Below, piece after piece: positions 28,575 through 63,248 of a stretch of DNA of 64,000 nt. The notes under the pieces were generated by a model, which had not been told where the DNA came from, searched no databases, and saw only the letters and a program-made list of their open reading frames with translations. Numbering within the stretch: the stretch's first letter is position 1; the number at the start of each line of letters is the position of its first letter. Source of the DNA: Spirochaetota bacterium (lineage in GTDB: Bacteria > Spirochaetota > UBA4802 > JAFGDQ01). The stretch covers positions 1 to 64,000 of the forward strand of contig JAXHTS010000064.1 of NCBI GenBank assembly GCA_034190085.1. The letters run 5' to 3'. A program made the translations under genes and the position numbers.

Positions 28575-28661
28575 TATACTATTATAGTTAATCCGGACAA
28601 AGACTTTTTCAATAACGACTTTCCATTTATAATTTTACAAAAATTATTGGAGGTAAGAAAA

Positions 28662-31184: not shown

Positions 31185-31198
31185 GAAACGATTATTTA

Positions 31199-31223
31199 AA
31201 AGGATTCAAATAATAAGTCCTTT
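31199..31223 (+). terminator. Weak hairpin after GRE1
   Basis: AAAGGATT pairs with AAGTCCTTT with one bulge, followed by ATTATAAGG. It is a weak structure just past the GRE1 stop. Confidence 0.3.
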
Positions 31224-31320
31224 ATTATAAGGCTGTATTATAAGTTGATAATATATCTTAACGCATTATACAAGATGTTAAGGTTAATAAATACAAAACA
31301 CAATTAAAGGAGGCAAAGAA

Positions 31321-33840: not shown

Positions 33841-33853
33841 AGAATGATTATAC

Positions 33854-33880
33854 TGAAGGGCTCATATATTGAGCCCTTCA
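33854..33880 (+). terminator. Rho-independent terminator after GRE2
   Basis: TGAAGGGCTCA-TATAT-TGAGCCCTTCA is a perfect 11-base stem followed by CTTTGTTAT, 14 bases after the stop. Confidence 0.75.
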
Positions 33881-34029
33881 CTTTGTTATGAAATTTACCA
33901 ACCAATCAGGATTAGTTGAATAATATTTATTACTAATAATGAATTAAATAAATCTGAAGAGAAGGAGGTGATATAATATATTAGAATAGATATTATTATT
34001 AGATAAATAAAAAATGGGAGGTAAGAACA

Positions 34030-36552: not shown

Positions 36553-36553
36553 G

Positions 36554-36579
36554 CATTATTATGGAAATCCATAATAATG
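36554..36579 (+). terminator. Palindrome after GRE3
   Basis: CATTATTATGGA-AA-TCCATAATAATG is a 12-base inverted repeat starting two bases after the GRE3 stop. No U-tract follows, so it may stabilise or end the transcript. Confidence 0.4.
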
Positions 36580-36679
36580 GATTATTCACTATAACTAATT
36601 ATGCTAATAGGGTGGAGGATCTATTATACATTTTAGCAGTATATACTATTCAATATTAAGAAATAGGAGGTAATAATAG

Positions 36680-39199
36680 ATGTCAGATAAAGCAGGGAAT
36701 ACTAGTGTAACACAAAAAAAGAGTATTGAAGAGTTGGAGCAGGATAAAGAATGGTGGTGGGTAGCTGAAAGAAAGAGATCCAAAAGACTGGACTACCTAA
36801 GAAAAGCGGCTTGGAAGAAGGGAAGAAAGGGCGGGATGTATGAACCTGGCGTGAAGATTGATCTTGAAAGGCCGCAATTGTTTACAGAGGCTTGGAGAGA
36901 AAACGAGAATGAACCTCTTTCTATGAGAAGGGCTAATTCATTAGCACATATCCTAGATAACATCACCATATTTATTACTGACAGCTCACAAATTATGGGT
37001 TATCTGGGAAGTCTTCCGAACACCCTTATGTGGAATTGCGAGCTGGCAAGCTTTGTAAACGAAGAGATTTATAATGATCCGGTTGTAATTCCTGAGCCTG
37101 AAGATGAATCGCTTAAGATTATGGCTGAAATAAATAATTATTGGGGTTCAAGGGACAGTCTGGGCAAGGTGTTTAGAGAGTTATCCAGCGAAGAAGCTGT
37201 GAAGATGATGTCTAGCGTAATAATGTGGGGGGTACCTATCGGAGGTAGCTTCGGGTATGCTGGCAAGGATTATGAGTATCTCATGACTGGCGAGAGGGGA
37301 TTTGAAGACATAATCGATGAGATACAGGAAAGAATAGATGAGGCAGAGGAGAAGATAGACGGCAATCCAAGGCCGGATATTCTACCACTCTATGACAGGC
37401 TATCCAATTGGGAGGCAATGCAGATTGCGCTTGAGGCATGCATAAGATATGCAAAGAGATATTCCAGACTTGCCCGAATAATAGCCGAGAACTTCGAATC
37501 TGATCCAAAGCGAAAAGAAGAACTGCTCAAGATTGCTGAGTGCTGTGAGAGGGTGCCAGGCAAACCCCCAAATACCTTTCAGGAATCGTTGCAGTATGAT
37601 CACTTTATTCAAGTATGGAGCAGGTTTGAGGATGGGGAAGGAGCTTGGCCGGCCCGTCCGGATTACTACCATTGGCGATGCTATGATAGAGATGTTAACA
37701 TAGAGAAAAATATTACAAATGACGAAGCGATCGATTTTATAGGAGAATTTTTAATTCGCAGTTATGAATTGGCGGGTTATATGCCTAGATTTGGGGCTGA
37801 GGCGCTTCAGGGCATACAGGCTACCTGGGTATGGACCCTTGGTGGAGTAAATCAGGACGGCACTGACGCATGCAATGACCTCACCATTGCCTTTTTACAG
37901 GCTGCAAGGCTTGTGCGTGTGGCAAATCCTACCTTTGGATTCAGATGGCACCCCAAGGTACAGGATGAGGTGTGGAGAGAGGTATTCGAGTGCATCAGAC
38001 ACGGATTGGGTTATCCCAGCATACGGAATGATCCGGTTTTGATTGCTAATGGTATGCACTGGTTCGGTCATCCCTTGGAGGAAATGAGGACATGGGTTCA
38101 CCAGGCCTGCATGTCGCCTTGCCCCACAACAAAGCACGGCTCTCAGCCATGCCGAATGGCCTCAACAACACTTAATTGTTCCAAGATGGTTGAATATGCC
38201 CTGCATAATGGATTCGATAATTGCATCAAGATGCAGATGGGACCCAAGACTGGAGACGCGAGAAACTTTACAGACTTTGAAGAGCTTTTCCAGGCATGGG
38301 TAAAACAGATGGAGTGGATGACGAACTTCGGGACACGGATTATTAACCGTGCTCGCTATCAAAGTCCAAAGGCTTTCACACGACCCTTTCTTTCGGCCAT
38401 CTCTGAAGTTTCCATTGAGAGTGGTCTCGACAGGCTTGAGCCATCACTTGAGAGAGGGAATGCATGGATCACATTCTTTACATGGGTTGAGAATGCTGAT
38501 AGTCTCGCTGCAGTAAAAAAAATGGTATTTGATGAGAAGAAATATACTATGGATGAGTTGGTTGAAGCTCTAGAAAACAATTGGGAAGGCAAAGAGGAAA
38601 TGAGATTGGACTTTGTAAGGAATGCGCCTAAGTGGGGCAATGACGATGATTATGTTGATGAAATAATGGTTCGCTGTTTAAAGGAGGTGGCGAGACATTC
38701 ACATGAGATAAAGTGTCCATCCGGCAACAACTGGCCGGCATTGCCAGAGAATGTGAGTGGGAATATTCACTTTGCTCCTATGGTTCATGCCCTGCCAAAT
38801 GGAAGGAAGCTGGGGGATGCGCTATACGACGGGGGCATATCACCAGGTCCCGGACTGGATAAGAAGGGGCCTACAGCGGTATTGAAGTCATGCGGAAAGA
38901 TAGATCATATAAGCGACGGAAGGGCATTCCTCTTGAATCAGCGTTTATCACCAACCCAATTGGCTGGAGAGAAGGGTTATCAGTTATGGAAATCCTACAT
39001 GAAGACCTGGGCTGACCTGGGATTAGATCACGTTCAATTTAATATGGTTGATGATGCTACGCTAAGGGCAGCACAGAAGGATCCTGAGCAATATCAGGAG
39101 GTGATCGTTCGTGTGGCCGGTTACAGCGCGCATTTTGTGGACATCAGCCGCAAGACGCAGGATAATATCATACAGAGGACAATTCAGGGATTAGGATAA
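36680..39199 (+). CDS. GRE4: alkyl/benzylsuccinate synthase alpha-subunit-like glycyl radical enzyme
   Basis: 839 aa; its N-terminal tail is one residue shorter than in the others, so the catalytic residues are Cys477, Arg492 and Gly814. First subtype: WGVP, RELSSEE, ASTTLN, NAW. Its pocket segment reads SYELAGYMPRFGAEALQGI, and the normally conserved NRGRxKSPE is changed to NRARYQSPKAFTRP, the most divergent such loop in the set. An extra GTGGAGGATC lies about 65 bases before the start in addition to the AGGAGGT ribosome site. It is the last gene of the left GRE block and converges with rmlB. Confidence 0.85.
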   Translation: MSDKAGNTSVTQKKSIEELEQDKEWWWVAERKRSKRLDYLRKAAWKKGRKGGMYEPGVKIDLERPQLFTEAWRENENEPLSMRRANSLAHILDNITIFITDSSQIMGYLGSLPNTLMWNCELASFVNEEIYNDPVVIPEPEDESLKIMAEINNYWGSRDSLGKVFRELSSEEAVKMMSSVIMWGVPIGGSFGYAGKDYEYLMTGERGFEDIIDEIQERIDEAEEKIDGNPRPDILPLYDRLSNWEAMQIALEACIRYAKRYSRLARIIAENFESDPKRKEELLKIAECCERVPGKPPNTFQESLQYDHFIQVWSRFEDGEGAWPARPDYYHWRCYDRDVNIEKNITNDEAIDFIGEFLIRSYELAGYMPRFGAEALQGIQATWVWTLGGVNQDGTDACNDLTIAFLQAARLVRVANPTFGFRWHPKVQDEVWREVFECIRHGLGYPSIRNDPVLIANGMHWFGHPLEEMRTWVHQACMSPCPTTKHGSQPCRMASTTLNCSKMVEYALHNGFDNCIKMQMGPKTGDARNFTDFEELFQAWVKQMEWMTNFGTRIINRARYQSPKAFTRPFLSAISEVSIESGLDRLEPSLERGNAWITFFTWVENADSLAAVKKMVFDEKKYTMDELVEALENNWEGKEEMRLDFVRNAPKWGNDDDYVDEIMVRCLKEVARHSHEIKCPSGNNWPALPENVSGNIHFAPMVHALPNGRKLGDALYDGGISPGPGLDKKGPTAVLKSCGKIDHISDGRAFLLNQRLSPTQLAGEKGYQLWKSYMKTWADLGLDHVQFNMVDDATLRAAQKDPEQYQEVIVRVAGYSAHFVDISRKTQDNIIQRTIQGLG

Positions 39200-47265: not shown

Positions 47266-48564
47266 ATGGTTGTTGAGCAAGAAGTTGAAACTCTTCTCGG
47301 GGGTTATCGGATTCTTGATCTGTCCGATGAGGGTGGAATGCTATGTGGGAAGATATTGGGAGATCTTGGAGCTGATGTGATCCAGATTGAACCACCAGGT
47401 GGGAGCCCAGCTAGAAACATCGGCCCATACTATCACGATATCCCTGATCCAGAAAAGAGTCTTTACTGGTTCTGGACTGCCCTTAATAAGAGGGGAATAA
47501 CCATGGATATCGAGTCTAATGATGGGAGGGATATCTTCAAGAGATTAGTAAAGAAGGCTCATTTTGTAATTGAAAGCTTTCCCCCTGGGCATATGGAAAG
47601 CCTTGGATTGGGATACTCTGAATTAGAGAAGATCAATCCTGGAATCATCATGACCTCAATCACCCCCTTTGGTCAGACTGGGCCTTATGCTCATTATAAG
47701 GCTACTGACATCGTTGGTGTATCCATGGGTGGAATGAGCTGCATCTATGGAGAGATAGATCGAGGACCTGTGAGAATTAACGCGCCTCAATTCTATTTCC
47801 AGGGGGGGGTGCATGGCGCTCTGGGTTCAATAATGGCACATTACTGGAGAGAGTTAACTGGCGAAGGACAACATGTTGATGTATCCTGCCAGCAGGCGGT
47901 TGTTTTGTCCCTGATGATTGCTGCCGAGATGTGGGATATATGCAAAATGATATGTACAGGGGTTGGTCCTGGAATGGGTTTTATGGGCAAGAGGGTCTCG
48001 CAACTCATCTATCCAACTAAGGATGGCTATGTTTTAAGTATGTTAGGAGGGGGGGCTCAGGCAGGGATGGTAACCTCATCTAAAAATTTGACTTCAATAG
48101 CCAACTCCGATGGATACTTACTGGATCTCAAGGACTTTGATTGGTCCAATTGGGATTTCATGTCTGCAGCAATAAATAAAGCCCTTGGAGTGGAGTCAGA
48201 TGGGACAACAATAATTGATCAATTAGAAAAAGGATTAAACGAATATTTTCCTACCAAACGAAAACAAGACCTCTTTGATGAAGCTGTGGCTAAAGATATT
48301 CTGCTTATCCCAGTTTGCGATCCCAAGGATGTAGTTGAAAGTCCTCAACTAGCAGCTAGAGAATTTTGGGTACAAGTGGAACACCCTGAATTAGGAGAGA
48401 CAATCACATATCCAGGGTATCCTATTAAATTTAATGGTCTTCCATCATACAAACCACAACGACGAGCCCCATTAATTGGAGAGCACAATGAAGAGATATA
48501 CTCGAAAGAATTGGATTTAACAAGGGATCAACTTTGCCTCTTGAAGGGTCAGGGAGTAATATAA
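47266..48564 (+). CDS. CaiB/BaiF (family III) CoA-transferase, BbsE-like non-catalytic subunit
   Basis: 432 aa with the family III pattern: GKILGDLGADVIQIEPPGG, NKRGITMDIES, ITPFGQTGPY, and TGEGQHVDVS. Aligning to formyl-CoA transferase by the GxH-x-L stretch, the position of the catalytic Asp is Tyr177, so this subunit should not form the acyl-anhydride. Its partner, ten bases downstream, keeps the Asp. This layout, one dead and one active subunit, is what I recall for BbsEF, which activates benzylsuccinate with succinyl-CoA. GGAGGTG precedes the ATG. A role in activating GRE products is inferred. Confidence 0.75.
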   Translation: MVVEQEVETLLGGYRILDLSDEGGMLCGKILGDLGADVIQIEPPGGSPARNIGPYYHDIPDPEKSLYWFWTALNKRGITMDIESNDGRDIFKRLVKKAHFVIESFPPGHMESLGLGYSELEKINPGIIMTSITPFGQTGPYAHYKATDIVGVSMGGMSCIYGEIDRGPVRINAPQFYFQGGVHGALGSIMAHYWRELTGEGQHVDVSCQQAVVLSLMIAAEMWDICKMICTGVGPGMGFMGKRVSQLIYPTKDGYVLSMLGGGAQAGMVTSSKNLTSIANSDGYLLDLKDFDWSNWDFMSAAINKALGVESDGTTIIDQLEKGLNEYFPTKRKQDLFDEAVAKDILLIPVCDPKDVVESPQLAAREFWVQVEHPELGETITYPGYPIKFNGLPSYKPQRRAPLIGEHNEEIYSKELDLTRDQLCLLKGQGVI

Positions 48565-48574
48565 GGAGGAGGAT

Positions 48575-49828
48575 ATGAATAGGAAAAAACAGATATTCAA
48601 AGGAATAAAGGTCGCTGACTTCTCCTGGGTCGGCGTTGGTCCTCAGGTAGTGAGGGAACTTGCTGAGCATGGAGCCAAGGTTATACGTGTTGAATGTCAT
48701 CGCTATCCGGATACCCTACGGACTATTTTTCCTTTTAAGGATTTCAAACCTGGAATAGACCGAAGCGCATTTGGGGCTTGCTATAATACAAATAAATATG
48801 GCATGAGTCTTGATTTGAATATGCCCAAGGGACAAGAGGTTGCTAAAAGACTGGTTGAATGGGCTGATGTTATTACTGATAGCATGACTCCAGGGACAAT
48901 GGCCAAATGGGGGCTGGATTATGAAAACTGCCAAAAAATAAAACCAGACATTATATACTACTCTACTTGCCAAATGGGTCAAATCGGGCCTTATGCCAAA
49001 TTCGGTGGCTATGGGATGTTCGGCACCTCATACGCGGGTTTCTGTCATCTTCTGGGTTGGCCCGATAGATCACCCTTACCACTCTTTAACAACTACACCG
49101 ATTTCATTTCACCCTGGTATTTATGTTTGACTCTAATATTAGCCCTTCTTAGGCGAATGAAAACGGGTAAGGGGATGTATCTTGATCAATCTCAGGTGGA
49201 GGTTGGAGCTCAATTTATCGGACAGATTCTTTTGGATTATACAGTCAACGGTAGGATCCAAAATCGCTTGGGCAATCGAGATAACCAAATGGCTCCACAT
49301 GGTATATATCGTTGCAAGGGTGAAAACCGCTGGATAGCTATAGCAGTAATGAACAACAAACAATGGAACGCCTTTTGCAACATCACTGACAATACTGCAT
49401 TAGCCAATGATCCAAGATATACTACCATCCTTCAGAGAAAGCAAAACGAGGATGAGCTTGATAATATCATAAGTAGGTGGACCTGCAATTATACTCCTGA
49501 ACAAGTGATGGAAATGATGCAAAAAGAAGGAATACCCGCAGGTATAGTAGAGACTGCTGAGGATTTGTTCAAGGACCCACAACTGAAACACCGCAAACAC
49601 TTCCGCTTTATGAAACATAGAGTTATTGGAAATATGGCGTTTAATTCTCCAGCCTATCAGCTTTCCAAAACCCCGAATCATATCTGGAAAGTATCCCCTT
49701 GCCTAGGCGAGGATAATGACTATGTGTATAGGGAGATACTGGGATATAGCAAAAAAGAGATAGCTGAAATGCTGGCAGAGGGAGTAATCACGACCAAAGA
49801 AGATGTCCCCGCTGTACTTAAGGAATAG
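48575..49828 (+). CDS. CaiB/BaiF (family III) CoA-transferase, BbsF-like catalytic subunit
   Basis: 417 aa. It has the family III fold (VRELAEHGAKVIRVE, NTNKYGMSLDLNMP, TCQMGQIGPYAKF, KTGKGMYLDQSQVE), and the presumed catalytic Asp is Asp176 in NNYTDFISP. It starts ten bases after the first subunit with AGGAGGAGG as ribosome site, so the two are made together. It would transfer CoA from succinyl-CoA to a substituted succinate. GRE5 follows after 250 bases with its own promoter-like region. Confidence 0.78.
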   Translation: MNRKKQIFKGIKVADFSWVGVGPQVVRELAEHGAKVIRVECHRYPDTLRTIFPFKDFKPGIDRSAFGACYNTNKYGMSLDLNMPKGQEVAKRLVEWADVITDSMTPGTMAKWGLDYENCQKIKPDIIYYSTCQMGQIGPYAKFGGYGMFGTSYAGFCHLLGWPDRSPLPLFNNYTDFISPWYLCLTLILALLRRMKTGKGMYLDQSQVEVGAQFIGQILLDYTVNGRIQNRLGNRDNQMAPHGIYRCKGENRWIAIAVMNNKQWNAFCNITDNTALANDPRYTTILQRKQNEDELDNIISRWTCNYTPEQVMEMMQKEGIPAGIVETAEDLFKDPQLKHRKHFRFMKHRVIGNMAFNSPAYQLSKTPNHIWKVSPCLGEDNDYVYREILGYSKKEIAEMLAEGVITTKEDVPAVLKE

Positions 49829-49894
49829 GTCGAAATTATAAACAGGAGAATAGAACTATAAAAAATTTTCAATATTTTACATTTTTATTAAATA

Positions 49895-49938
49895 ATTGAT
49901 TTTGGATTGATTGAATATTGATTCTATATTGATTTTCA
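49895..49938 (+). promoter_or_regulatory. Four 11-base tandem direct repeats, PhoB/OmpR-type operator candidate
   Basis: ATTGATTTTGG, ATTGATTGAAT, ATTGATTCTAT and ATTGATTTTCA follow one another without a gap, so ATTGATT recurs at 49895, 49906, 49917 and 49928. Seven conserved bases plus four variable ones per turn is the layout of PhoB-family sites. The last repeat ends 10 bases before a TATAAT at 49944. Confidence 0.6.
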
Positions 49939-49943
49939 TTTTA

Positions 49944-49949
49944 TATAAT
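49944..49949 (+). promoter_or_regulatory. Candidate -10 box of the GRE5 promoter
   Basis: TATAAT lies nine to ten bases after the repeat block and about 130 bases before GRE5. No -35 box is at the right spacing, as expected if an activator on the repeats replaces it. Confidence 0.5.
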
Positions 49950-50079
49950 GACCACAACCTGAGGATACGTACCATAAAATGTATACATAGAAATAAAATT
50001 CAAATAAAGGGAGGTGAGTGAAAAGGATTAAATATTGATAAATTGTTATAAATTATAAAAAAAATGGAGGTATTGTAAA

Positions 50080-52599
50080 ATGTCACCAGAAACAGAAACT
50101 ATTAGTGATGCACCCCAGAAAAAAAGTATGGAGGAACTCGAAAATAATAAGGAGTGGTGGTGGATTGCTGAAAAGAAAAGATCCAAACGACTGGATTATC
50201 TAAGAAAGGCTGTTTGGAAGAAGGGGAAAAAGGGCGGAATGTATGAACCCGGTATCAAGATGGACATTGAGAGGCCGATTTTATTTACAGAGGCGTGGAA
50301 AGAAAATGAGAATGAGCAGGTGATGATGAGGAGAGCAAAGGCTATTTCACATGTTATGGATAATACCAGCATCTTTATTACTGACCATGCTCAATTAGTG
50401 GGTTATTTAGGCAGTCTGCCAAACACCCTCTCATGGAATTGCGATTTAGCTACATTGGCCAATGAAGAGATATACAACGATCCAATTGTAATACCTGAAC
50501 CACAGGAGGAATCGCTTAAGATAATGGCTGATATTAATAACTATTGGGCTCCGAGAGACTGTTTAGGCACAATGTTGAGAGATCTCTCAGGTGAAGAGGC
50601 TGTTAAATTCATGACTTTTGTACTTATGTGGAGTTTTCCGGTTGGTGGAAGCTTTGGCTATTCAGGCAAGGACTATGAATATTTTATGACAGGCGAGAGG
50701 GCATTTGAAGACATAATAGATGAGATACAGGAAAAAATAGATGATGCCGAGGAACAGATTGACGGCAATCCAGGGCCGGATATCCTCCCGCTCTATGACA
50801 AGCTAGCCAATTGGGAGGCTATGCAGATTATACTTGAGGCTTGCATCAGGATGGCTAAGAGATATTCCAGATTAGCTCGAATAATAGCAGAGAACTTCGA
50901 ATCCGATCCCAAACGAAAAGAGGAACTACTTAGAATCGCAGAAACCTGTGAGAGAGTTCCAGCAAAACCTCCGAGAACCCTCCAGGAATCCTTTCAGTAT
51001 GACCACTTTATTCAGATATGGGCAAGAATTGAAGATGGGGAGGGGGCATGGCCTGCCCGTCCTGATTACTACCATTGGCCATATTATAACAACGATGTTA
51101 ACATTGAGAAGAAGATTACTAGAGAGGAGGCCATCGATCTAGTTGGAGAATTCATGATTCGCTGCAATGAAGTAGGGGCATATGTACCCGCAGTAGCAGC
51201 TGAAGCCCTCCAGGGCATCTCAGCTACCTGGGTATGGACATTGGGCGGAGTCAATACAGATGGCAGTGATGCTTGCAATGATCTTACTACAGCCTTTTTG
51301 GAGGCAGCGCGACTCGTGCGCGTATCCAATCCTACCTTTGGCTTTAGATGGCACCCACAGGTAAAGGATGAGGTGATGAGGGAGGTATTCGAGTGCATAC
51401 GGCATGGATTGGGTTATCCAAGCATTCGTAATGATCCTATTTTAATAGCAAACGGCATGAACTGGCATGGACATCCCTTGGAAGAGATGAGGACATGGGT
51501 GCACCAAGCCTGCATGTCACCATGCCCAACAACGAAACATGGTTCTCAACCAGCACGAATGGCAATGACCCTGAATTGTGCTAAGATGGTTGAATATTCT
51601 CTGCATAATGGATTTGACCATATTGTTAATATGCAGATGGGGCCAGAGACAGGCGATGCAAGGAAGTTTAAGGATTTTGAAGAACTCTTTCAGGCATGGG
51701 TACAGCAGATGAAATGGCTGGTTAACTATGGCACACGGATAATGAATCGGGGACGTATGAGGAGCCCCCAAAAATATGGTCGCCCATTCCTCTCAGCCAT
51801 ATCAGAGAAATCCGTTGAAGCCGGTCTTGATGCTTTAGAGCCATCCCTCGAGCGAGGAAACTGCTGGCTTACTTTCTTTACCTGGGCAGAGAATGCTGAT
51901 AGTTTAGCAGCGGTGAAGAGATTGGTGTTTGATGAGAAGAAATACACAATGGATGAACTTATTGAAGCATTGAAGACTAACTGGGAAGGCAAAGAAAAGA
52001 TGCGTTTGGACTTTGTAAAGAATGCTCCTAAATGGGGTAATGATGATGATTTTGTGGATGAGATAATGGTACGATGTCTGAGAGAAGTTGCTAAGCACTC
52101 GAAGGAAATACAATGTCCATCAGGCAATAGCTGGCCTGCATTACCTGAGAATGTAAGCGGAAATATACTTTTTTCGAGTCTGGTACACGCTTTGCCAAAC
52201 GGCAGGAAACTGGGGGATGCGCTATACGACGGCGGCATATCGCCAGGCCCAGGACTCGATAAAAAGGGGCCTACAGCAGTGCTGAAATCTTGCGGAAAGA
52301 TAGATCATGTGAGTGATGGAAGGGCATTTCTGTTGAATCAGAGACTTTCTCCCACTCAACTCTCCGGAGAGAAGGGGTATCAGTTATGGAAGTCCTACAT
52401 GAAGACATGGGCAGATCTGGGATTGGATCACGTACAGTTTAATATGGTTGACGATGCCACGCTTCGAGCAGCACAGAAGGATCCTGAGCAGTATCAGGAG
52501 GTGATCGTTCGCGTGGCAGGCTACAGCGCTCACTTTGTGGACATAAGCCGCAAGACGCAGGATAATATTATTCAGAGAACAATTCAAGGACTAGGATAG
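50080..52599 (+). CDS. GRE5: alkyl/benzylsuccinate synthase alpha-subunit-like glycyl radical enzyme
   Basis: 839 aa with Cys478 (ACMSPCP), Arg493 (SQPARM) and Gly814. Second subtype: WSFP, RDLSGEE, shortened AMTLN loop, NCW. It also has GMNWHGHP, shared only with GRE2. Cluster-specific positions are of the right-hand kind (IDDAEE, CIRMAK, RVSNP). The pocket segment reads CNEVGAYVPAVAAEALQGI. GGAGGT is its ribosome site. A second Shine-Dalgarno-like GGGAGGTGA lies 63 bases upstream in the leader. It sits directly downstream of the CoA-transferase pair and has the clearest promoter region of the set. Confidence 0.86.
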   Translation: MSPETETISDAPQKKSMEELENNKEWWWIAEKKRSKRLDYLRKAVWKKGKKGGMYEPGIKMDIERPILFTEAWKENENEQVMMRRAKAISHVMDNTSIFITDHAQLVGYLGSLPNTLSWNCDLATLANEEIYNDPIVIPEPQEESLKIMADINNYWAPRDCLGTMLRDLSGEEAVKFMTFVLMWSFPVGGSFGYSGKDYEYFMTGERAFEDIIDEIQEKIDDAEEQIDGNPGPDILPLYDKLANWEAMQIILEACIRMAKRYSRLARIIAENFESDPKRKEELLRIAETCERVPAKPPRTLQESFQYDHFIQIWARIEDGEGAWPARPDYYHWPYYNNDVNIEKKITREEAIDLVGEFMIRCNEVGAYVPAVAAEALQGISATWVWTLGGVNTDGSDACNDLTTAFLEAARLVRVSNPTFGFRWHPQVKDEVMREVFECIRHGLGYPSIRNDPILIANGMNWHGHPLEEMRTWVHQACMSPCPTTKHGSQPARMAMTLNCAKMVEYSLHNGFDHIVNMQMGPETGDARKFKDFEELFQAWVQQMKWLVNYGTRIMNRGRMRSPQKYGRPFLSAISEKSVEAGLDALEPSLERGNCWLTFFTWAENADSLAAVKRLVFDEKKYTMDELIEALKTNWEGKEKMRLDFVKNAPKWGNDDDFVDEIMVRCLREVAKHSKEIQCPSGNSWPALPENVSGNILFSSLVHALPNGRKLGDALYDGGISPGPGLDKKGPTAVLKSCGKIDHVSDGRAFLLNQRLSPTQLSGEKGYQLWKSYMKTWADLGLDHVQFNMVDDATLRAAQKDPEQYQEVIVRVAGYSAHFVDISRKTQDNIIQRTIQGLG

Positions 52600-52612
52600 C
52601 TATAAAGATGAT

Positions 52613-52635
52613 GGGGCCTCAGAGGTAGAGGCCCC
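52613..52635 (+). terminator. Rho-independent terminator after GRE5
   Basis: GGGGCCTC-AGAGGTA-GAGGCCCC is an 8-base GC-rich stem followed by TAATTTATAT, 13 bases after the stop. Confidence 0.7.
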
Positions 52636-52730
52636 TAATTTATATCTATTTATTTACTATCAGATATAAAAATAGAAATCACGTTAAGTATTAACTACAT
52701 TGGTAATATTAATGAAAGGAGGAAGAAGGG

Positions 52731-55250
52731 ATGACTTCAGAAACAAAAAAAACTAATAATTCATCTCCGAAAAAAAATACTGAAGAACTTGAGAAGAGCA
52801 GAGAATGGTGGTGGGTAGCAGAGAAGAAGAGATCCGAAAGACTCGATTATCTACGGAAAGCAGTTTGGAAGAAAGGCAGGAAAGGAGGGATGTATGAACC
52901 TGGAGTCAAGGTTGACCTCGAAAGGCCGCTACTCTTCACAGAGAGTTGGGAAAAGAATGAAAATGATCCAATAATGTTAAGAAGGGCAAAGGCAGTAGCA
53001 CATGTAATGGACAATATTAGTATCTTCATTACGGATAAGGCTCAAATTGTTGGATACTTGGGAAGTCTTCCAAATACCATATTCTGGTATTGTGAATTAG
53101 CTAGCATTCTTAATGAAGAAGTATATAACGACCCAGTTATTATACCTGAACCTCAGGACGAATCGCTTGAGACAATGGCTGAAATCAACAATTACTGGGG
53201 AGCAAGAGATAGTATGGGGAAAGTGTTAAGGGATCTCTCAGGAGAGGAAGTAGTAAAGTATATGACACGCACCCTTATGTGGAGTTCGCCTATTGGCGGC
53301 AGCTTCGGTTATGCTGGCAAGGATTATGAGTACTTTATGACAGGCAAGAGGGGATTTGATGAGATCATTGATGAGATACAGGTAAAGATAGATGATGCTG
53401 AGGAAAAAATTGACGGCAATCCTGGACCGGATATCCTCCCACTCTATGACAAGCTAGCCAATTGGGAGGCTATGCAGATAATACTTGAGGCCTGCATCAG
53501 AATGGCTAAGAGATATTCCAGATTGGCGCGAATAATAGCCGAGAACTTCGAATCCGATCCCAAACGAAAAGAGGAACTCCTTAGAATTGCTGAAACCTGT
53601 GAGCAGGTACCTGGGAGACCACCCAGATCTCTACAGGAATCCTTTCAGTATGATCATTTTATTCAGGTTTGGACTAGATTTGAGGATGTTGAGGGGGCAT
53701 GGCCGTCTCGACCAGATTACTATCATTGGCCATACTATGACAATGATGTAAACATCGATAAACGTCTAACCAAGGAGGAGGCGCTTGATCTAGTAGGCGA
53801 ATATATGATCAGATGCAGTGAAACAGGTTTTTATCTTCCTAGATCTGGAGCAGAGGGAATTCAGGGTATAACTGGCACCTGGGTATGGACCATAGGTGGA
53901 GTAAAACAGGATGGGAATGATGCCTGCAATGACCTGACCATAGCACTCTTGCAGGCTGCAAGGCTCGTGCGTGTATCTAATCCCACTTTTGGATTCAGGT
54001 GGCATCCAAAGGTGTCTGATGAGGTATGGAGGGAGGTATTCGAGTGCATACGGCATGGACTGGGGTATCCCAGCATACGCAATGATCCGGTGTTAATTGC
54101 CAATGGTATGCACTGGCATGGACATCCCTTGGAGGAGATGAGGACATGGGTACATCAGGCCTGCATGTCGCCCTGCCCTGCTACGAAGCATGGTTCTCAA
54201 CCAGCAAGAATGGCAACAACTCTTAACTGTTCCAAGATGATTGAGTATGCCCTGCATAATGGGTATGATCATTGTATAAAGATGCAGATGGGACCCCAAA
54301 CAGGAGATGCCAGGAAATTCACAGATTTTGAAGAACTATTCCAGGCATGGGCAAAACAGATGAAGTGGCTAACTAATTTTGGAGTCCGGATAATGAGTCG
54401 CGGCAGATATAAAAGTCCAAATAATTATGGTCGCCCCTTTTTATCAGCCGTATCCGAAAGGTGTATTGAGACCGGTTTTGATGCTCTTGAGCCATCAATC
54501 GAACGTGGGAATTGCTGGTTAACATTTTTCACATGGACTGAAAATGCTGATAGTTTAGCAGCAATAAAGAGATTAGTCTTTGATGAGAAGAGGTATACGA
54601 TGGAAGAGCTTATTGATGCATTGGAGAATAATTGGGATGGCAAGGAGGAGATGCGCTTGGACTTTGTGAAGAATGCTCCCAAGTGGGGCAATGATGATGA
54701 TTATGTGGATGAGATTATGGTACGATGCCTTAGAGAGGTGGCCAGGCATTCCAAAGAGATTAAGTGTCCCTCTGGAAACAATTGGCCTGCGTTACCAGAG
54801 AACGTGAGTGGGAATGTACTATTTTCAAGCATTGTGCATGCATTACCAAATGGAAGGAAATTGGGTGATGCCCTGTACGATGGCGGCATATCGCCTGGCC
54901 CAGGACTCGATAAAAGAGGCCCTACTGCGGTGCTGAAGTCATGCGGAAAGATAGATCATATAAGCGATGGAAGGGCATTCCTCTTGAATCAGAGGCTTTC
55001 GCCCACTCAGCTCTCAGGAGAGAAGGGCTATCAGTTATGGAAGTCCTACATGAGTACCTGGGCTGATCTGGGATTGGATCATGTGCAATTTAATATGGTT
55101 GATGATGAGACTCTTCGAGCAGCGCAGAAGGATCCTGAACAGTATCAGGAGGTGATTGTTAGAGTGGCTGGTTACAGCGCTCACTTTGTGGACATAAGCC
55201 GCAAGACGCAGGATAACATCATACAGAGGACGATTCAAGGACTTGGATAG
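52731..55250 (+). CDS. GRE6: alkyl/benzylsuccinate synthase alpha-subunit-like glycyl radical enzyme
   Basis: 839 aa with Cys478 (ACMSPCPATKHG), Arg493 (SQPARM) and Gly814. Second subtype: WSSP, RDLSGEE, shortened ATTLN loop, NCW. Unlike GRE1-5 the pocket segment ends EGIQGITGT, as in GRE7 and 8, so its pocket mixes features of both subtypes: CSETGFYLPRSGAEGIQGI. One change in the strongly conserved tail, VDDETLRAAQ in place of VDDATLRAAQ, is unique. GGAGG precedes the ATG and a terminator follows. Confidence 0.85.
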   Translation: MTSETKKTNNSSPKKNTEELEKSREWWWVAEKKRSERLDYLRKAVWKKGRKGGMYEPGVKVDLERPLLFTESWEKNENDPIMLRRAKAVAHVMDNISIFITDKAQIVGYLGSLPNTIFWYCELASILNEEVYNDPVIIPEPQDESLETMAEINNYWGARDSMGKVLRDLSGEEVVKYMTRTLMWSSPIGGSFGYAGKDYEYFMTGKRGFDEIIDEIQVKIDDAEEKIDGNPGPDILPLYDKLANWEAMQIILEACIRMAKRYSRLARIIAENFESDPKRKEELLRIAETCEQVPGRPPRSLQESFQYDHFIQVWTRFEDVEGAWPSRPDYYHWPYYDNDVNIDKRLTKEEALDLVGEYMIRCSETGFYLPRSGAEGIQGITGTWVWTIGGVKQDGNDACNDLTIALLQAARLVRVSNPTFGFRWHPKVSDEVWREVFECIRHGLGYPSIRNDPVLIANGMHWHGHPLEEMRTWVHQACMSPCPATKHGSQPARMATTLNCSKMIEYALHNGYDHCIKMQMGPQTGDARKFTDFEELFQAWAKQMKWLTNFGVRIMSRGRYKSPNNYGRPFLSAVSERCIETGFDALEPSIERGNCWLTFFTWTENADSLAAIKRLVFDEKRYTMEELIDALENNWDGKEEMRLDFVKNAPKWGNDDDYVDEIMVRCLREVARHSKEIKCPSGNNWPALPENVSGNVLFSSIVHALPNGRKLGDALYDGGISPGPGLDKRGPTAVLKSCGKIDHISDGRAFLLNQRLSPTQLSGEKGYQLWKSYMSTWADLGLDHVQFNMVDDETLRAAQKDPEQYQEVIVRVAGYSAHFVDISRKTQDNIIQRTIQGLG

Positions 55251-58099: not shown

Positions 58100-60622
58100 C
58101 TAGCCCAAACCTTGTATTGTCCTCTGTATGATGTTATCCTGCGTCTTGCGGCTGATATCCACAAAATGCGCGCTGTAGCCTGCCACGCGAACGATCACCT
58201 CCTGATACTGCTCGGGATCCTTCTGTGCTGCCCTGAGGGTCGCATCATCTATCATGTTGAACTGAACGTGATCCAATCCCAGATCAGCCCAGGTCTTCAT
58301 GTAGGACTTCCATAATTGATACCCCTTCTCTCCGGAGAGCTGAGCTGGTGATAACCTTTGATTCAACAAAAATGACCTGCCATCGCTTACATGATCTATC
58401 TTTCCGCAAGATTTCAGCACCGCAGTAGGTCCTTTTTTATCGAGCCCTGGACCTGGCGATATACCACCATCATACAGCGCATCTCCCAATCTTCTACCAT
58501 TGGGAAGTGCATGCACCATATTAGCAAAATGAATATTCCCACTCACATTCTCAGGCAATGCAGGCCATGTGTTACCAGATGGACATCTTACCTCCCTCGA
58601 ATGCCTAGCCACCTCCCTAAGACATCTTACCATAATCTCATCCACATAATCTTCGTCATTGCCCCACTTGGGAGCATTCTTCACAAAGTCCATGCGCATC
58701 CCTTCCTTGCCTTCCCAATCGTTCTCCAATGCCTCAACAAGCTCTTTCATCGTATACTTCTTCTCATCAAAGATTAATCTCTTTACTGCCGCTAAGCTAT
58801 CAGCATTCTCAGTCCATGTGAAGAAGGTAATCCAAGCATTGCCTCTCTCTATCGATGGGTCAACTGCGTCAAGACCACTCTCGATACTCTTCTCTGATAT
58901 AGCCGAGAGAAATGGTCGGCCATAATATTCTGGACTCTTCACTCTACCACGATTTACTATTCGTGTTGCGAAATTCACAATCCACTCCATCTGCTTTACC
59001 CATGCCTGAAACAGTTCTTCAAAATCTGCAAATTTCCTGGCATCCCCTGTTTTGGGTCCCATCTGCATATTTATACATCTGTCAAAACCATTATGAAGAG
59101 CATACTCAATCATCTTAGATGTATTCAACGTAGCTGTTGCCATTCTAGCTGGTTGAAAACCATGCTTCGTAGCAGGGCATGGCGACATGCAGGCCTGGTG
59201 TACCCATGTTCTCATCTCCTCCAAGGGATGGCTGTGCCAGTGCATACCATTGGCAATTAACACCGGATCATTGCGTATGCTGGGATACCCCAATCCATGC
59301 CGTATGCACTCGAATACCTCCCTCATCACCTCATCTGACACCTGTGGATGCCATCTGAATCCAAAGGTAGGCCCTGATACACGCACTAGCCTTGCAGCCT
59401 GCAAGAGTGCTATGGTCAGGTCATTGCATGCATCGCTTCCATCGAGTTTAACTCCGCCTAAAGTCCATATCCATGTACCGGCTATACCCTGAACCCCCTC
59501 AGACGCGAATCGTGGAGCATATCCTCCCACTTCATGGCAGCGAATCATAAACTCACCAACAAGATCAAGCGCCTCCTCCTTGGTTAGACATTTATCAATG
59601 TTTACATCTTGATTATAATATGGCCAATGATAATAATCAGGTCGAGATGGCCATGCCCCCTCTAAATCCTCAAATCTGGTCCATATTTGTATAAAATGAT
59701 CATATTGCAATGACTCCTGAAAAGTCCTCGGTAGTTTATTAGGCACCCTCTTACAGGTCTCCTCTATCCTTAAGAGTTCTTCCCTACGCCTTGGATCGGA
59801 TTCAAAATTCTCAGCAACAATCTTTGCTAACCTAGCATATCTTTTCGACATCCTGATGCAGGCCTCAAGTATAATCTGCATGGCCTCCCAATTGGTCAAC
59901 CTGTCATAGAGCGGAAGGATGTCCGGCCCAGGATTGCCGTCAATCCTTTCCTCAGCATCATCTATTTTTTCCTGTATCTCATCTATTATGTCTTCAAATG
60001 CCCTCTTCCCTGTCATAAAATATTCATAGTCCTTACCGGCATAACCGAAACTACCACCAATAGGAAGCCCCCACATAACAACAGTACTCATGAGTTTAAC
60101 AGCCTCTTCACTGGAGAGTTCCCTAAACACCTTCCCAAGATTATCTCTTGGCCCCCAGTAGTTGTTGAGTTCAGCCATAGTCTCAAGCGATTCATCCTGA
60201 GGCTCAGGTATAATAACTGGGTCATTATATATCTCCTCATTAAGGAAGCTTGCTATGTCCGGATGCCACATAAGAGTATTTGGAAGACTCCCATAATATC
60301 CAACAAGCTGAGCATGATCAGTAATAAAGATTGTTATGTTATCAAAAACGTACGAAAGCGCCTTTGCCCTTCTCATAATTATCGGCTCATTTTCGTTTTC
60401 TTTCCAGGCCTCTGTGAATAAGAGCGGTCTTTCAAGATCAACCTTGAGCCCTGGCTCATACATTCCCCCCTTTTTCCCTTTCTTCCAAACTGCTTTCCTG
60501 AGATAATCGAGTCTTTCGGATCTCTTCTTCTCTGCTACCCACCACCATTCCCTGCTCTTCTCAAGTTCCTTTAAACTTTTCTTTTTAAGTACTTCAGTAA
60601 CTCTAAGTGCTTCTGGTTCCAT
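58100..60622 (-). CDS. GRE7: alkyl/benzylsuccinate synthase alpha-subunit-like glycyl radical enzyme
   Basis: 840 aa with Cys478 (ACMSPCPATKHG), Arg493 (FQPARM) and Gly815. First subtype (WGLP, RELSSEE, NAW), but the loop after the Arg reads ATATLN rather than ASTTLN. Two otherwise fixed sites differ: HWHSHP for HWHGHP and RVSGP for RVSNP. The pocket segment reads CHEVGGYAPRFASEGVQGI. GGGAGGT precedes the ATG. A second, perfect AAAGGAGGTGA lies about 77 bases upstream with no frame of its own. Only 103 bases separate it from GRE8 and no terminator is seen between, so the two may share a transcript. Confidence 0.85.
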   Translation of the reverse strand: MEPEALRVTEVLKKKSLKELEKSREWWWVAEKKRSERLDYLRKAVWKKGKKGGMYEPGLKVDLERPLLFTEAWKENENEPIIMRRAKALSYVFDNITIFITDHAQLVGYYGSLPNTLMWHPDIASFLNEEIYNDPVIIPEPQDESLETMAELNNYWGPRDNLGKVFRELSSEEAVKLMSTVVMWGLPIGGSFGYAGKDYEYFMTGKRAFEDIIDEIQEKIDDAEERIDGNPGPDILPLYDRLTNWEAMQIILEACIRMSKRYARLAKIVAENFESDPRRREELLRIEETCKRVPNKLPRTFQESLQYDHFIQIWTRFEDLEGAWPSRPDYYHWPYYNQDVNIDKCLTKEEALDLVGEFMIRCHEVGGYAPRFASEGVQGIAGTWIWTLGGVKLDGSDACNDLTIALLQAARLVRVSGPTFGFRWHPQVSDEVMREVFECIRHGLGYPSIRNDPVLIANGMHWHSHPLEEMRTWVHQACMSPCPATKHGFQPARMATATLNTSKMIEYALHNGFDRCINMQMGPKTGDARKFADFEELFQAWVKQMEWIVNFATRIVNRGRVKSPEYYGRPFLSAISEKSIESGLDAVDPSIERGNAWITFFTWTENADSLAAVKRLIFDEKKYTMKELVEALENDWEGKEGMRMDFVKNAPKWGNDEDYVDEIMVRCLREVARHSREVRCPSGNTWPALPENVSGNIHFANMVHALPNGRRLGDALYDGGISPGPGLDKKGPTAVLKSCGKIDHVSDGRSFLLNQRLSPAQLSGEKGYQLWKSYMKTWADLGLDHVQFNMIDDATLRAAQKDPEQYQEVIVRVAGYSAHFVDISRKTQDNIIQRTIQGLG

Positions 60623-60725
60623 TTACTTATACCTCCCTTCATTTTTTTAAATAAGTTTACAATTATAAATATAAAATTTTATCTCAACAAAAAATCAATC
60701 ACCTCCTTTAGCCGCATTTTTATAT

Positions 60726-63248
60726 CTATCCTAACCCTTGTATTGTCCTCTGTATAATATTATCCTGCGTTTTGCGGCTGATGTCCACAAAATGCGCGCT
60801 GTAACCAGCCACACGAACAATAACCTCCTGATACTGCTCTGGGTCCTTCTGCGCTGCACGAAGGGTCGCGTCATCTACCATATTGAATTGCACATGATCC
60901 AATCCCAAATCAGCCCAGGTCTTCATGTAGGACTTCCATAACTGATACCCCTTCTCCCCTGAGAGCTGAGTTGGAGAGAGTCTCTGATTCAACAGGAATG
61001 CCCTTCCATCACTCACATGATCTATCTTTCCGCAAGATTTCAGCACTGCTGTAGGCCCCCTTTTGTCTAATCCCGGCCCCGGTGATATGCCGCCATCGTA
61101 CAGGGCATCTCCCAACTTTCTTCCATTGGGTAAGGCATGTACCATATTTGCAAAATGTATATTTCCGCTCACGTTCTCAGGTAACGCAGGCCAATTGTTG
61201 CCAGAGGGACACTTAATCTCTTTGGAATGCCTGGCCACCTCTCTCAGGCATCGTACCATTATTTCATCAGCATTATCATCATCATTTCCCCATTTAGGAC
61301 CATTTTTTACAAAATCCAATCTCATCACCTCTTTGCCATCCCAGTTAGCCTCCAAAGCATCCAACAATTCATCCATTGTGTATTTCTTTTCATCAAATAC
61401 CAATTTCTTTACCGCTGATAGACTATCTGCATTCTCTACCCATGTAAAGAATGTAATCCATGCATTACCCCTCTCTATTGATGGTTCTAATGCATCCAAT
61501 CCACTCTCAACACATCTTTCGGAAATTGCGGAAAGATATGGACGACTATAAAATTCGGGACTCTTCACTCGACCACGGTTAACTACCCGAGTTCCAAAGT
61601 TTGTCATCCACTCCATCTGCTTTACCCATGCCTGGAAAAGCTCTTCAAAATCCTTAAACGTCCTTGCATCACCCGTCTTAGGCCCCATCTGCATCTTGAT
61701 GCAATTATCGAATCCATTATGCAGGGCATATTCAACCATTTTTGAACAATTTAGGGTTGTCGATGCCATGCGACAGGGTTGATAGCCATGCTTAGTAGTC
61801 GGAGCTGGAGACATGCAGGCCTGATGTACCCATGTTCTCATCTCTTCCAAGGGATGTCCATGCCAGTGCATACCATTGGCAATCAACACCGGATCGTTCC
61901 GTATGCTGGGATACCCCAATCCATGCCGTATGCACTCGAATACCTCTCTCCATACCTCATCCTGTACCTGTGGATGCCACCTGAATCCAAAAGTGGGATT
62001 TGATACACGAACAAGCCTTGCAGCTTGAAGAAATGCAATTGTCAAATCATTGCATGCATCAGTGCCATCCTTATTTACTCCACCAATTGTCCATACATAT
62101 GTACCAGGTATTCCTTGAATACCCTCTGCACCAATTCTTGGGAGATAATAACCCATCTCATTGGAGCGAATCAAAAACTCTCCCACAAGATCAAGCGCTT
62201 CCTCATAAGATATACTTTTCTCTCTGTTTACGTCCTTATCATAATAGGACCAATGATAGTAATCAGGACGGGCAGGCCATGCCCCATCCAAATCTTCAAA
62301 TCTGGAAAATATTTGTATAAAGTGATCATACTGTAGCGATTCCTGAAAGGACCCTGGGGGGCTCTCCGGCACATTCTGACAGGTTTCTGCGATCCTAAGT
62401 AGTTCTTCTTTACGCTTGGGATCGGATTCGAAGTTCTCTGCTATTAGCTGCGCTAATCTGGAATATCTCTTAGCCATCCTAATGCAGGCCTCAAGTATAA
62501 TCTGCATAGCCTCCCAATTGGCTAGCTTATCATAGAGCGGAAGAATATCCGGTCCTGGATTGCCATCTATTTTATCCTCAGCATCATCTATTATTCCCTG
62601 TATCTCATCTATGATATTCCCAAATGCCCTCGTCCCACTCATTAAATATTCATAATCTTTTCCTGCATATCCGAAGCTGCCACCTACTGGTATGCCCCAC
62701 AGAAGGACGGTGCTCATAAGTTTCACCGCCTCTTCACTGGATAATTCTCGAAATACCTTGCCCAGACTATCCCTTGAACCCCAATAATTGTTGATTTCAG
62801 CCATTGTTTTGAGCGATTCATTTTCTGGCTCAGGTATTATAACAGGATCGCTGTATATCTCCTCATTGATAAAACTTGCTATTTCTGGATACCAATAGAT
62901 AGTGTTTGGAAGGCTGCCCAAATATCCAACAAGTTGAGCTTGATCTGTAATGAAGATAGTAATATTATCCAAAACATGCGCTAAAGACTTGGCTCTCCTC
63001 ATCATTATTGGATCATTCTCGTTCTCCTTCCAGGCTTCAGTAAAAAGAAGCGGCCTCTCAAGATCGACCTTTATACCCGGTTCATACATTCCTCCCTTTC
63101 TCCCCTTTTTCCATACTGCTTTTCTCAGATAATCCAGTCGCTTGGACCTCTTCTTCTCAGCAACCCACCACCATTCTTTATCCCTCTCTAACTCATCAAT
63201 GCTCTTCCCATGAGATGCATCACTAATACTTTGATTCTTTTGTACCAT
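60726..63248 (-). CDS. GRE8: alkyl/benzylsuccinate synthase alpha-subunit-like glycyl radical enzyme
   Basis: 840 aa with Cys478, Arg493 (YQPCRM) and Gly815. First subtype: WGIP, RELSSEE, ASTTLN, NAW. It is the only complete copy in which the thiyl motif reads ACMSPAP, losing the second Cys (position 482). Its pocket segment reads SNEMGYYLPRIGAEGIQGI, and PGTYVWT replaces the ATWVWT of GRE1-5. GGGAGG is its ribosome site. Its upstream region contains the terminator of GRE9. Confidence 0.85.
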   Translation of the reverse strand: MVQKNQSISDASHGKSIDELERDKEWWWVAEKKRSKRLDYLRKAVWKKGRKGGMYEPGIKVDLERPLLFTEAWKENENDPIMMRRAKSLAHVLDNITIFITDQAQLVGYLGSLPNTIYWYPEIASFINEEIYSDPVIIPEPENESLKTMAEINNYWGSRDSLGKVFRELSSEEAVKLMSTVLLWGIPVGGSFGYAGKDYEYLMSGTRAFGNIIDEIQGIIDDAEDKIDGNPGPDILPLYDKLANWEAMQIILEACIRMAKRYSRLAQLIAENFESDPKRKEELLRIAETCQNVPESPPGSFQESLQYDHFIQIFSRFEDLDGAWPARPDYYHWSYYDKDVNREKSISYEEALDLVGEFLIRSNEMGYYLPRIGAEGIQGIPGTYVWTIGGVNKDGTDACNDLTIAFLQAARLVRVSNPTFGFRWHPQVQDEVWREVFECIRHGLGYPSIRNDPVLIANGMHWHGHPLEEMRTWVHQACMSPAPTTKHGYQPCRMASTTLNCSKMVEYALHNGFDNCIKMQMGPKTGDARTFKDFEELFQAWVKQMEWMTNFGTRVVNRGRVKSPEFYSRPYLSAISERCVESGLDALEPSIERGNAWITFFTWVENADSLSAVKKLVFDEKKYTMDELLDALEANWDGKEVMRLDFVKNGPKWGNDDDNADEIMVRCLREVARHSKEIKCPSGNNWPALPENVSGNIHFANMVHALPNGRKLGDALYDGGISPGPGLDKRGPTAVLKSCGKIDHVSDGRAFLLNQRLSPTQLSGEKGYQLWKSYMKTWADLGLDHVQFNMVDDATLRAAQKDPEQYQEVIVRVAGYSAHFVDISRKTQDNIIQRTIQGLG

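Follow-up and report, generated by a model that had tools for sequence, protein, structure and literature searches.

A period-11 heptamer array upstream of an alkylsuccinate synthase-type glycyl radical enzyme gene as a probable SARP-type promoter

In the stretch of DNA analyzed here (the window; 64,000 nt of contig C64 of a Spirochaetota bacterium), a glycyl radical enzyme (GRE) gene, GRE5, is preceded by four evenly spaced copies of ATTGATT and a TATAAT hexamer. Which kind of regulator might read these repeats and switch on GRE5? The initial annotation had proposed a promoter of the PhoB/OmpR type, activated by a two-component response regulator. In this study, we analyzed the array itself, its occurrence elsewhere in the genome and in other genomes, and the regulators encoded beside arrays of the same layout.

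The GRE5 locus and its repeat array

The features of the locus are as follows (window coordinates).

47266 to 48564, second CoA-transferase gene
48575 to 49828, plus strand, class III CoA-transferase gene on the 5' side of the array
49857 to 49894, plus strand, A/T-rich stretch abutting the 5' side of the array, a possible UP-like element
49895 to 49901, plus strand, heptamer 1, exact ATTGATT
49906 to 49912, plus strand, heptamer 2, exact ATTGATT
49917 to 49923, plus strand, heptamer 3, exact ATTGATT, at about -39 to -33 if the -10 hexamer occupies -12 to -7
49928 to 49934, plus strand, heptamer 4, exact ATTGATT, at about -28 to -22 on the same presumed numbering
49944 to 49949, plus strand, -10 hexamer TATAAT
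50066 to 50070, plus strand, ribosome-binding site GGAGG of GRE5
50080 to 52599, plus strand, GRE5, of predicted AssA/MasD (alkylsuccinate / 1-methylalkylsuccinate synthase) type, with Pfam PFL-like and Gly_radical domains
52731 to 55250, plus strand, GRE6, a tandem AssA/MasD-like GRE, 131 nt past GRE5

As initially annotated, the four exact copies follow a period of 11 (spacers TTGG, GAAT and CTAT, in order), and GRE5 lies just past the CoA-transferase genes, with the array in the 251-nt gap between the nearer of these and GRE5. The distance from the last copy to TATAAT, previously given as about 10 bases, was measured as 9 nt (TTCATTTTA), and the reported lack of a -35 box was confirmed, since no sigma-70 -35 box was found on the plus strand 16-18 nt from TATAAT. 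When all periods from 8 to 20 were scanned, this array was the single four-copy exact heptamer of the window, and 60 dinucleotide shuffles of the window produced arrays of neither three nor four copies at period 11. The claim that no other GRE of the window carries the ATTGATT array also held.

The best solved relative of GRE5 was MasD (9o8u; 1319 bits, residues 9-839), followed by benzylsuccinate synthase with 501 bits. Thus, GRE5 is assigned to the AssA/MasD type, being closer by sequence to AssA/MasD than to other GREs and carrying the Gly_radical domain. Judging from their spacing, GRE5 and GRE6 are possibly co-transcribed. The genome (4.27 Mb) contained 35 Gly_radical matches, some of which were fragments at contig ends. 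Most GREs were found in tandem runs of genes of about 840 aa that were 76-95% identical (window 28647-39199, 50080-55250 and 58100-63248; C64:67681-78010). Given the assignment of GRE5 to the AssA/MasD type, these tandem GREs may represent a large amplification of alkylsuccinate synthases. As a separate observation, a second Shine-Dalgarno-like sequence (AAGGAGGTGA/GGGAGGTGAGTG) was present 66-204 nt upstream of several GRE starts, including those of GRE5 and a GRE on contig C18 (window 50009, 33963 and 60707; L018:2033), with no clear ORF behind these sites.

Further ATTGATT arrays and the regulator encoded on C18

The initial annotation had recommended a genome search for the 11-base array. 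Allowing up to three mismatches, we found three further ATTGATT sites (C18:2253-2292, C64:80243-80282 and C2:86820-86870), a number that may be too low as the genome consists of 86 contigs and several GRE clusters run off contig ends. The reversed pattern, used as a control, had no match genome-wide. Two of the three sites, on C18 and at 80 kb on C64 (approximately 16 kb past the window end), had the same layout as GRE5, namely four heptamers followed after 9 nt by TATAAT, TATAGT or TATACT. A search of the whole genome with zero mismatches for two repeats, 9 nt and TATANT returned only these two sites and GRE5. The final heptamer on C18 was GTTGATT, and the C2 array had five units, identical TTGA spacers and a weak -10 (AATAAA) at 9 nt. 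A/T tracts like that of GRE5 were also observed 5' of the C64:80 kb and C18 arrays, as well as of an array with another heptamer on C38 (see below). The elements associated with these arrays are:

C18:2533-5811, minus strand, gene of a MalT-like STAND ATPase/TPR regulator of 1092 aa ending in an OmpR-type winged helix and BTAD
L019:15418-15990 (C64:79417-79989), minus strand, ECF sigma factor gene 3' of the C64:80 kb array
L017:2573-9655 (C2), TolC-like/HlyD/ABC efflux operon 3' of the five-unit array

The C18 array is flanked by two genes, the regulator gene 241 nt to the 5' side, in the same orientation, and a GRE gene that starts at 1828, approximately 410 nt to the 3' side. On C64, the ECF-sigma gene is followed by a gap, a TetR gene and GREs; this arrangement, in which the GREs form a run of four, is a possible regulatory cascade. 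Downstream of the C2 array are an outer-membrane efflux gene and then HlyD and ABC-transporter genes.

In a tree of 13 GREs, GRE5 and the C18 GRE were sisters (86% identity, support 100/99). Upstream of the two genes, the DNA aligned at chance level except around the array; a repeat kept while the flanks of sister genes diverge is what would be expected if it is under selection. GRE5 and the C64:80 kb site had somewhat more promoter sequence in common. Outside this genome, a search of 58 other genomes gave two isolated one-mismatch matches, which is the chance level, and no clear relative of the array. The comparison of related genes, which the initial annotation had named as a test, thus covered paralogues, and the closest GRE paralogue carries the array.

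These comparisons also bear on the possibility that slippage produced the array as a short tandem repeat without function. Within the C18 and C2 arrays the spacers are identical, as recent duplication of a unit would give. However, at GRE5 and C64:80 kb the heptamers are exact whereas the spacers vary, and we rejected slippage for this reason; moreover, three arrays keep the same 9-nt gap to TATANT, and the array has persisted despite the divergence of the sister-gene flanks. Slippage is thus considered highly unlikely.

The regulator gene adjoining the C18 array encodes a MalT-like NOD (residues 12-454), TPRs and a BTAD (residues 951-1091). Its C-terminal 258 residues matched EmbR and AfsR in a profile search across residues 5-256, covering both the winged helix and the BTAD. 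The AlphaFold model of this domain had a mean pLDDT of 93.6, and its top six Foldseek matches were AfsR-RNA polymerase complexes and EmbR. A single-sequence PDB search with the domain yielded TPR proteins only, the AfsR/EmbR match having come from the alignment profile; because most sequence matches to solved structures were TPR designs fitting the BTAD helices, the EmbR/AfsR matches are the informative ones. On the basis of the profile and the model, the C-terminal domain is classified as a SARP domain (OmpR-type wHTH plus BTAD). Among 12 relatives, BTAD was detected in all and Trans_reg_C in four, the latter falling below the Pfam threshold in the C18 regulator. Against the NCBIfam AfsR equivalog model, the protein scored 33 bits over part of the SARP domain only (cut-off 1430).

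In total, four MalT-like STAND/TPR proteins with a C-terminal SARP domain were identified in the genome (on C18, C12, C38 and C19). In the C18, C38 and C19 regulators, the first ~450 residues scored 268-276 bits with the MalT model, below its equivalog cut-off of 537 bits. In their SARP domains, the C12, C38 and C19 paralogues were 50-59% identical to C18. No full-length relative in the class or in a sample of the phylum was as close to the C18 regulator as these paralogues. The C12 gene (L021:880-4104) has many stops and frame changes in its N-terminal half and an intact 580-aa C-terminal frame.

Two side observations concern the paralogue loci. The C12, C38 and C19 regulators are each followed by large MMPL/RND-type transporter genes (L059:10877-18021, L060:9742-16984 and L021:8449-10869). 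In addition, L021 encodes a 290-aa protein (L021:5976-6848) in which an Fe-S domain (PF04060) is joined to a LuxR-type HTH, possibly a redox-sensing regulator.

Arrays beside related regulators and the choice of activator

To define arrays beside the 12 regulators, we took 700 nt 3' of each gene (3.8 kb for C12 and 1.55 kb for C19), and heptamers of only two letter types, such as that of C38, were kept in the locus scans. In 8 of the 12 cases, a near-perfect three-heptamer array was present 3' of the regulator at period 11, while all other periods between 8 and 15 gave none, and shuffles rarely or never equaled the arrays of these eight. On C38, three copies of AATTATT, 9 nt and TATATT lie approximately 350 nt past the regulator stop codon, with no second such site in the genome. 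On C12, three copies of ATCGATT, 9 nt and TATATT lie 3.7 kb 3' of the regulator; although this regulator gene is disrupted, the array is perfect. The 53% identical regulators of L062 and L121 have three copies of ATTTGTT about 90 nt to the 3' side, those of L064 and L067 have ATCGATT-ATCGATA-TTCGATT directly 3', and in L071 from Thermosyntropha lipolytica, ATTTAGA-type units occur 60 nt 3' of the regulator, followed by 9 nt and TATAAT. The -10 elements of L064, L067, L062 and L121 were weaker than those in this genome (in L064 and L067, the hexamer at 9 nt is TAACGA or TAATTA, and the one at 7 nt GATAAC or GATAAT). C19 showed a weak, degenerate array that was borderline (3 of 100 shuffles were equally good), and no clear array was found just 3' of the L063, L065 and L066 regulators or beside the genes of same-family STAND-BTAD proteins of G001 and G002. 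Over whole related loci (3-23 kb), period-11 arrays were no commoner than those of other periods, and hence the signal is confined to the region immediately following the regulator gene. Period-11 arrays with regulator-specific heptamers therefore adjoin most of the MalT-SARP regulators examined, a linkage that consists of layout and adjacency.

Two OmpR-type response regulators were detected in the genome at the Pfam threshold:

C18:15581-16276, PhoB, beside pst/phoU/phoR
C15:116037-116732 (L198:8038-8733), orphan winged-helix response regulator

The receiver part of the latter is weak, and no kinase was seen next to its gene. In the pho box, each PhoB unit has seven plus four bases, the units form 11-bp direct repeats near the -10, and they are bound by an OmpR-type winged helix. 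A two-component regulator of the OmpR/PhoB family, either PhoB or the C15 orphan, could thus be envisaged to bind the ATTGATT repeats and activate GRE5, as both belong to the same DNA-binding fold class, at least two 11-bp direct repeats lie over the -35 region, and the PhoB gene lies approximately 13 kb from one of the ATTGATT arrays, on C18. On the other hand, neither ATTGATT nor a comparable intergenic array was found near the PhoB/pst/pho genes or the C15 regulator, so that no cognate response regulator is linked to the sites. PhoB, which is a phosphorylated two-component response regulator, sits among phosphate genes, and arrays sharing this layout but built of other heptamers go with SARP-domain regulators instead of response regulators. 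Because the layout cannot tell a PhoB-type from a SARP-type promoter, the case for the latter rests on this adjacency and on the heptamers differing between regulators. We consequently rejected the two-component reading, which is unlikely. What is supported of the original proposal is a winged-helix-activated promoter built on 11-bp direct repeats; the orphan winged-helix regulator that was expected near such arrays does exist, although no array accompanies it.

If the promoter is of the SARP type, its activator might also be another paralogue (C12, C38 or C19), or several of them in common. The similarity of the SARP domains noted above favors this, as does the C12 heptamer ATCGATT, which is one base off ATTGATT, and C19 is without a clear array of its own. 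However, of the four it is the C18 regulator that lies next to ATTGATT repeats; C12 and C38 are accompanied by heptamers of their own, and the C12 gene is disrupted. We regard this alternative as very unlikely.

Taken together, we estimate a probability of about three in four that the array and TATAAT form an activator-dependent promoter of GRE5 (and probably GRE6) read by the SARP-type regulator of C18. Our computations cover the array, the -10 spacing, the four genome sites, the regulator domains and the adjacency of same-layout arrays to related regulators, and we infer that the C18 regulator binds ATTGATT and activates. Further members of the regulon would be the TolC/ABC-efflux operon, the GRE of C18 and, near the GRE run at 67-78 kb on C64, the ECF-sigma gene.

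A broader proposal is more tentative, and its chances seem slightly short of even. It assumes a MalT-SARP family in anaerobes in which each member has its own heptamer within a fixed frame (3-5 heptamers, period 11, 9 nt, TATANT) just 3' of its gene. One member in this genome would be a dedicated switch for alkane activation by fumarate addition; under its control would be two genes for alkylsuccinate synthases, a cascade through the ECF sigma factor, and an efflux pump. Specificity may follow one residue of the recognition helix. Asp at that position (C12, C19, L064 and L067) went together with CGATT in the heptamer, although the C19 array is weak, and Val, Asn, Ala or Ser with its absence. 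C12 did not join L064 and L067 in the regulator tree, the support of which was poor. Such a residue code is a post hoc pattern from small numbers and may serve as a lead only.

The placement of the arrays suggests how genes for oxygen-free alkane breakdown could switch on. In the papers searched (subscription journals lay largely outside the search), neither a regulator of alkylsuccinate synthase genes nor a SARP-type operator outside actinobacteria was described. If correct, our reading would provide a candidate activator, DNA site and regulon for oxygen-independent alkane activation in a genome that encodes about 30 enzymes of this kind. It would also carry the SARP mode of promoter activation over to anaerobes, where regulators and heptamers could be read as pairs.

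Candidate mechanism and comparison with known systems

In the proposed mechanism, one SARP protomer would occupy each ATTGATT with its 4-nt spacer, with all protomers lined up along the same side of the DNA helix. The pair closest to the -10 would stand in for the missing -35 and dock sigma region 4 of RNA polymerase, as AfsR does. The C18 regulator would be controlled by an ATP/ligand switch in its STAND domain, perhaps sensing a hydrocarbon-derived signal, which is a guess.

EmbR of Mycobacterium tuberculosis (2fez, 2ff4) shares the SARP fold (wHTH and BTAD) but has an FHA domain and no STAND/TPR part. MalT itself ends in a LuxR-type HTH, whereas the C18 regulator ends in the SARP domain. 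PimR, a SARP-LAL regulator, is likewise a large protein combining SARP and MalT/LAL-like ATPase parts, and its operator consists of three directly repeated heptamers with 4-nt spacers like those of the GRE5 array (PMC5930380). However, the SARP domain is at the N terminus of PimR, so the C18 protein lacks the N-terminal SARP and C-terminal LAL half of that subfamily; the PimR heptamer is CGGCAAG, and the PimR operator is clear of the -35, whereas repeat 3 of GRE5 sits at the -35 position.

A close parallel is found in AfsR of Streptomyces (afs box; RNA polymerase complexes 8hvr and 8k60), which also has wHTH, BTAD, STAND (NOD) and TPR domains and uses 11-bp direct repeats before the -10 where a good -35 is missing. 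The order is reversed in the C18 protein, with the MalT-like NOD first and the SARP domain last. Furthermore, the GRE5 promoter has four exact repeats with an A/T-rich heptamer and AfsR has two, and AfsR acts in the setting of an actinobacterial antibiotic cluster rather than of alkylsuccinate synthase-type GREs. Following the definition of SARP-type promoters in PMC5930380 and PMC10936776, a SARP site is built of repeats in the same orientation at 11-bp intervals, the last of which, on the 3' side, is separated from the -10 by 8 bp (PMC10936776). The GRE5 array has heptameric direct repeats at 11-bp spacing and a 9-nt gap, a comparison that is good to 1 bp as repeat ends are defined differently between papers; the same gap is found at the three ATTGATT arrays and at the C12 and C38 arrays. 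In the AfsR box, one unit occupies -40 to -30 and the other the 11 bp that follow; docking of sigma region 4 replaces the poor -35 (PMC10936776). With the start site placed from the -10 hexamer, the first bases of heptamers 3 and 4 of GRE5 would be at about -39 and -28. These positions differ from those of the AfsR box units by no more than 1 bp, and this agreement in spacing, conditional on that start site, appears to be the strongest mechanistic link between the GRE5 promoter and the SARP systems.
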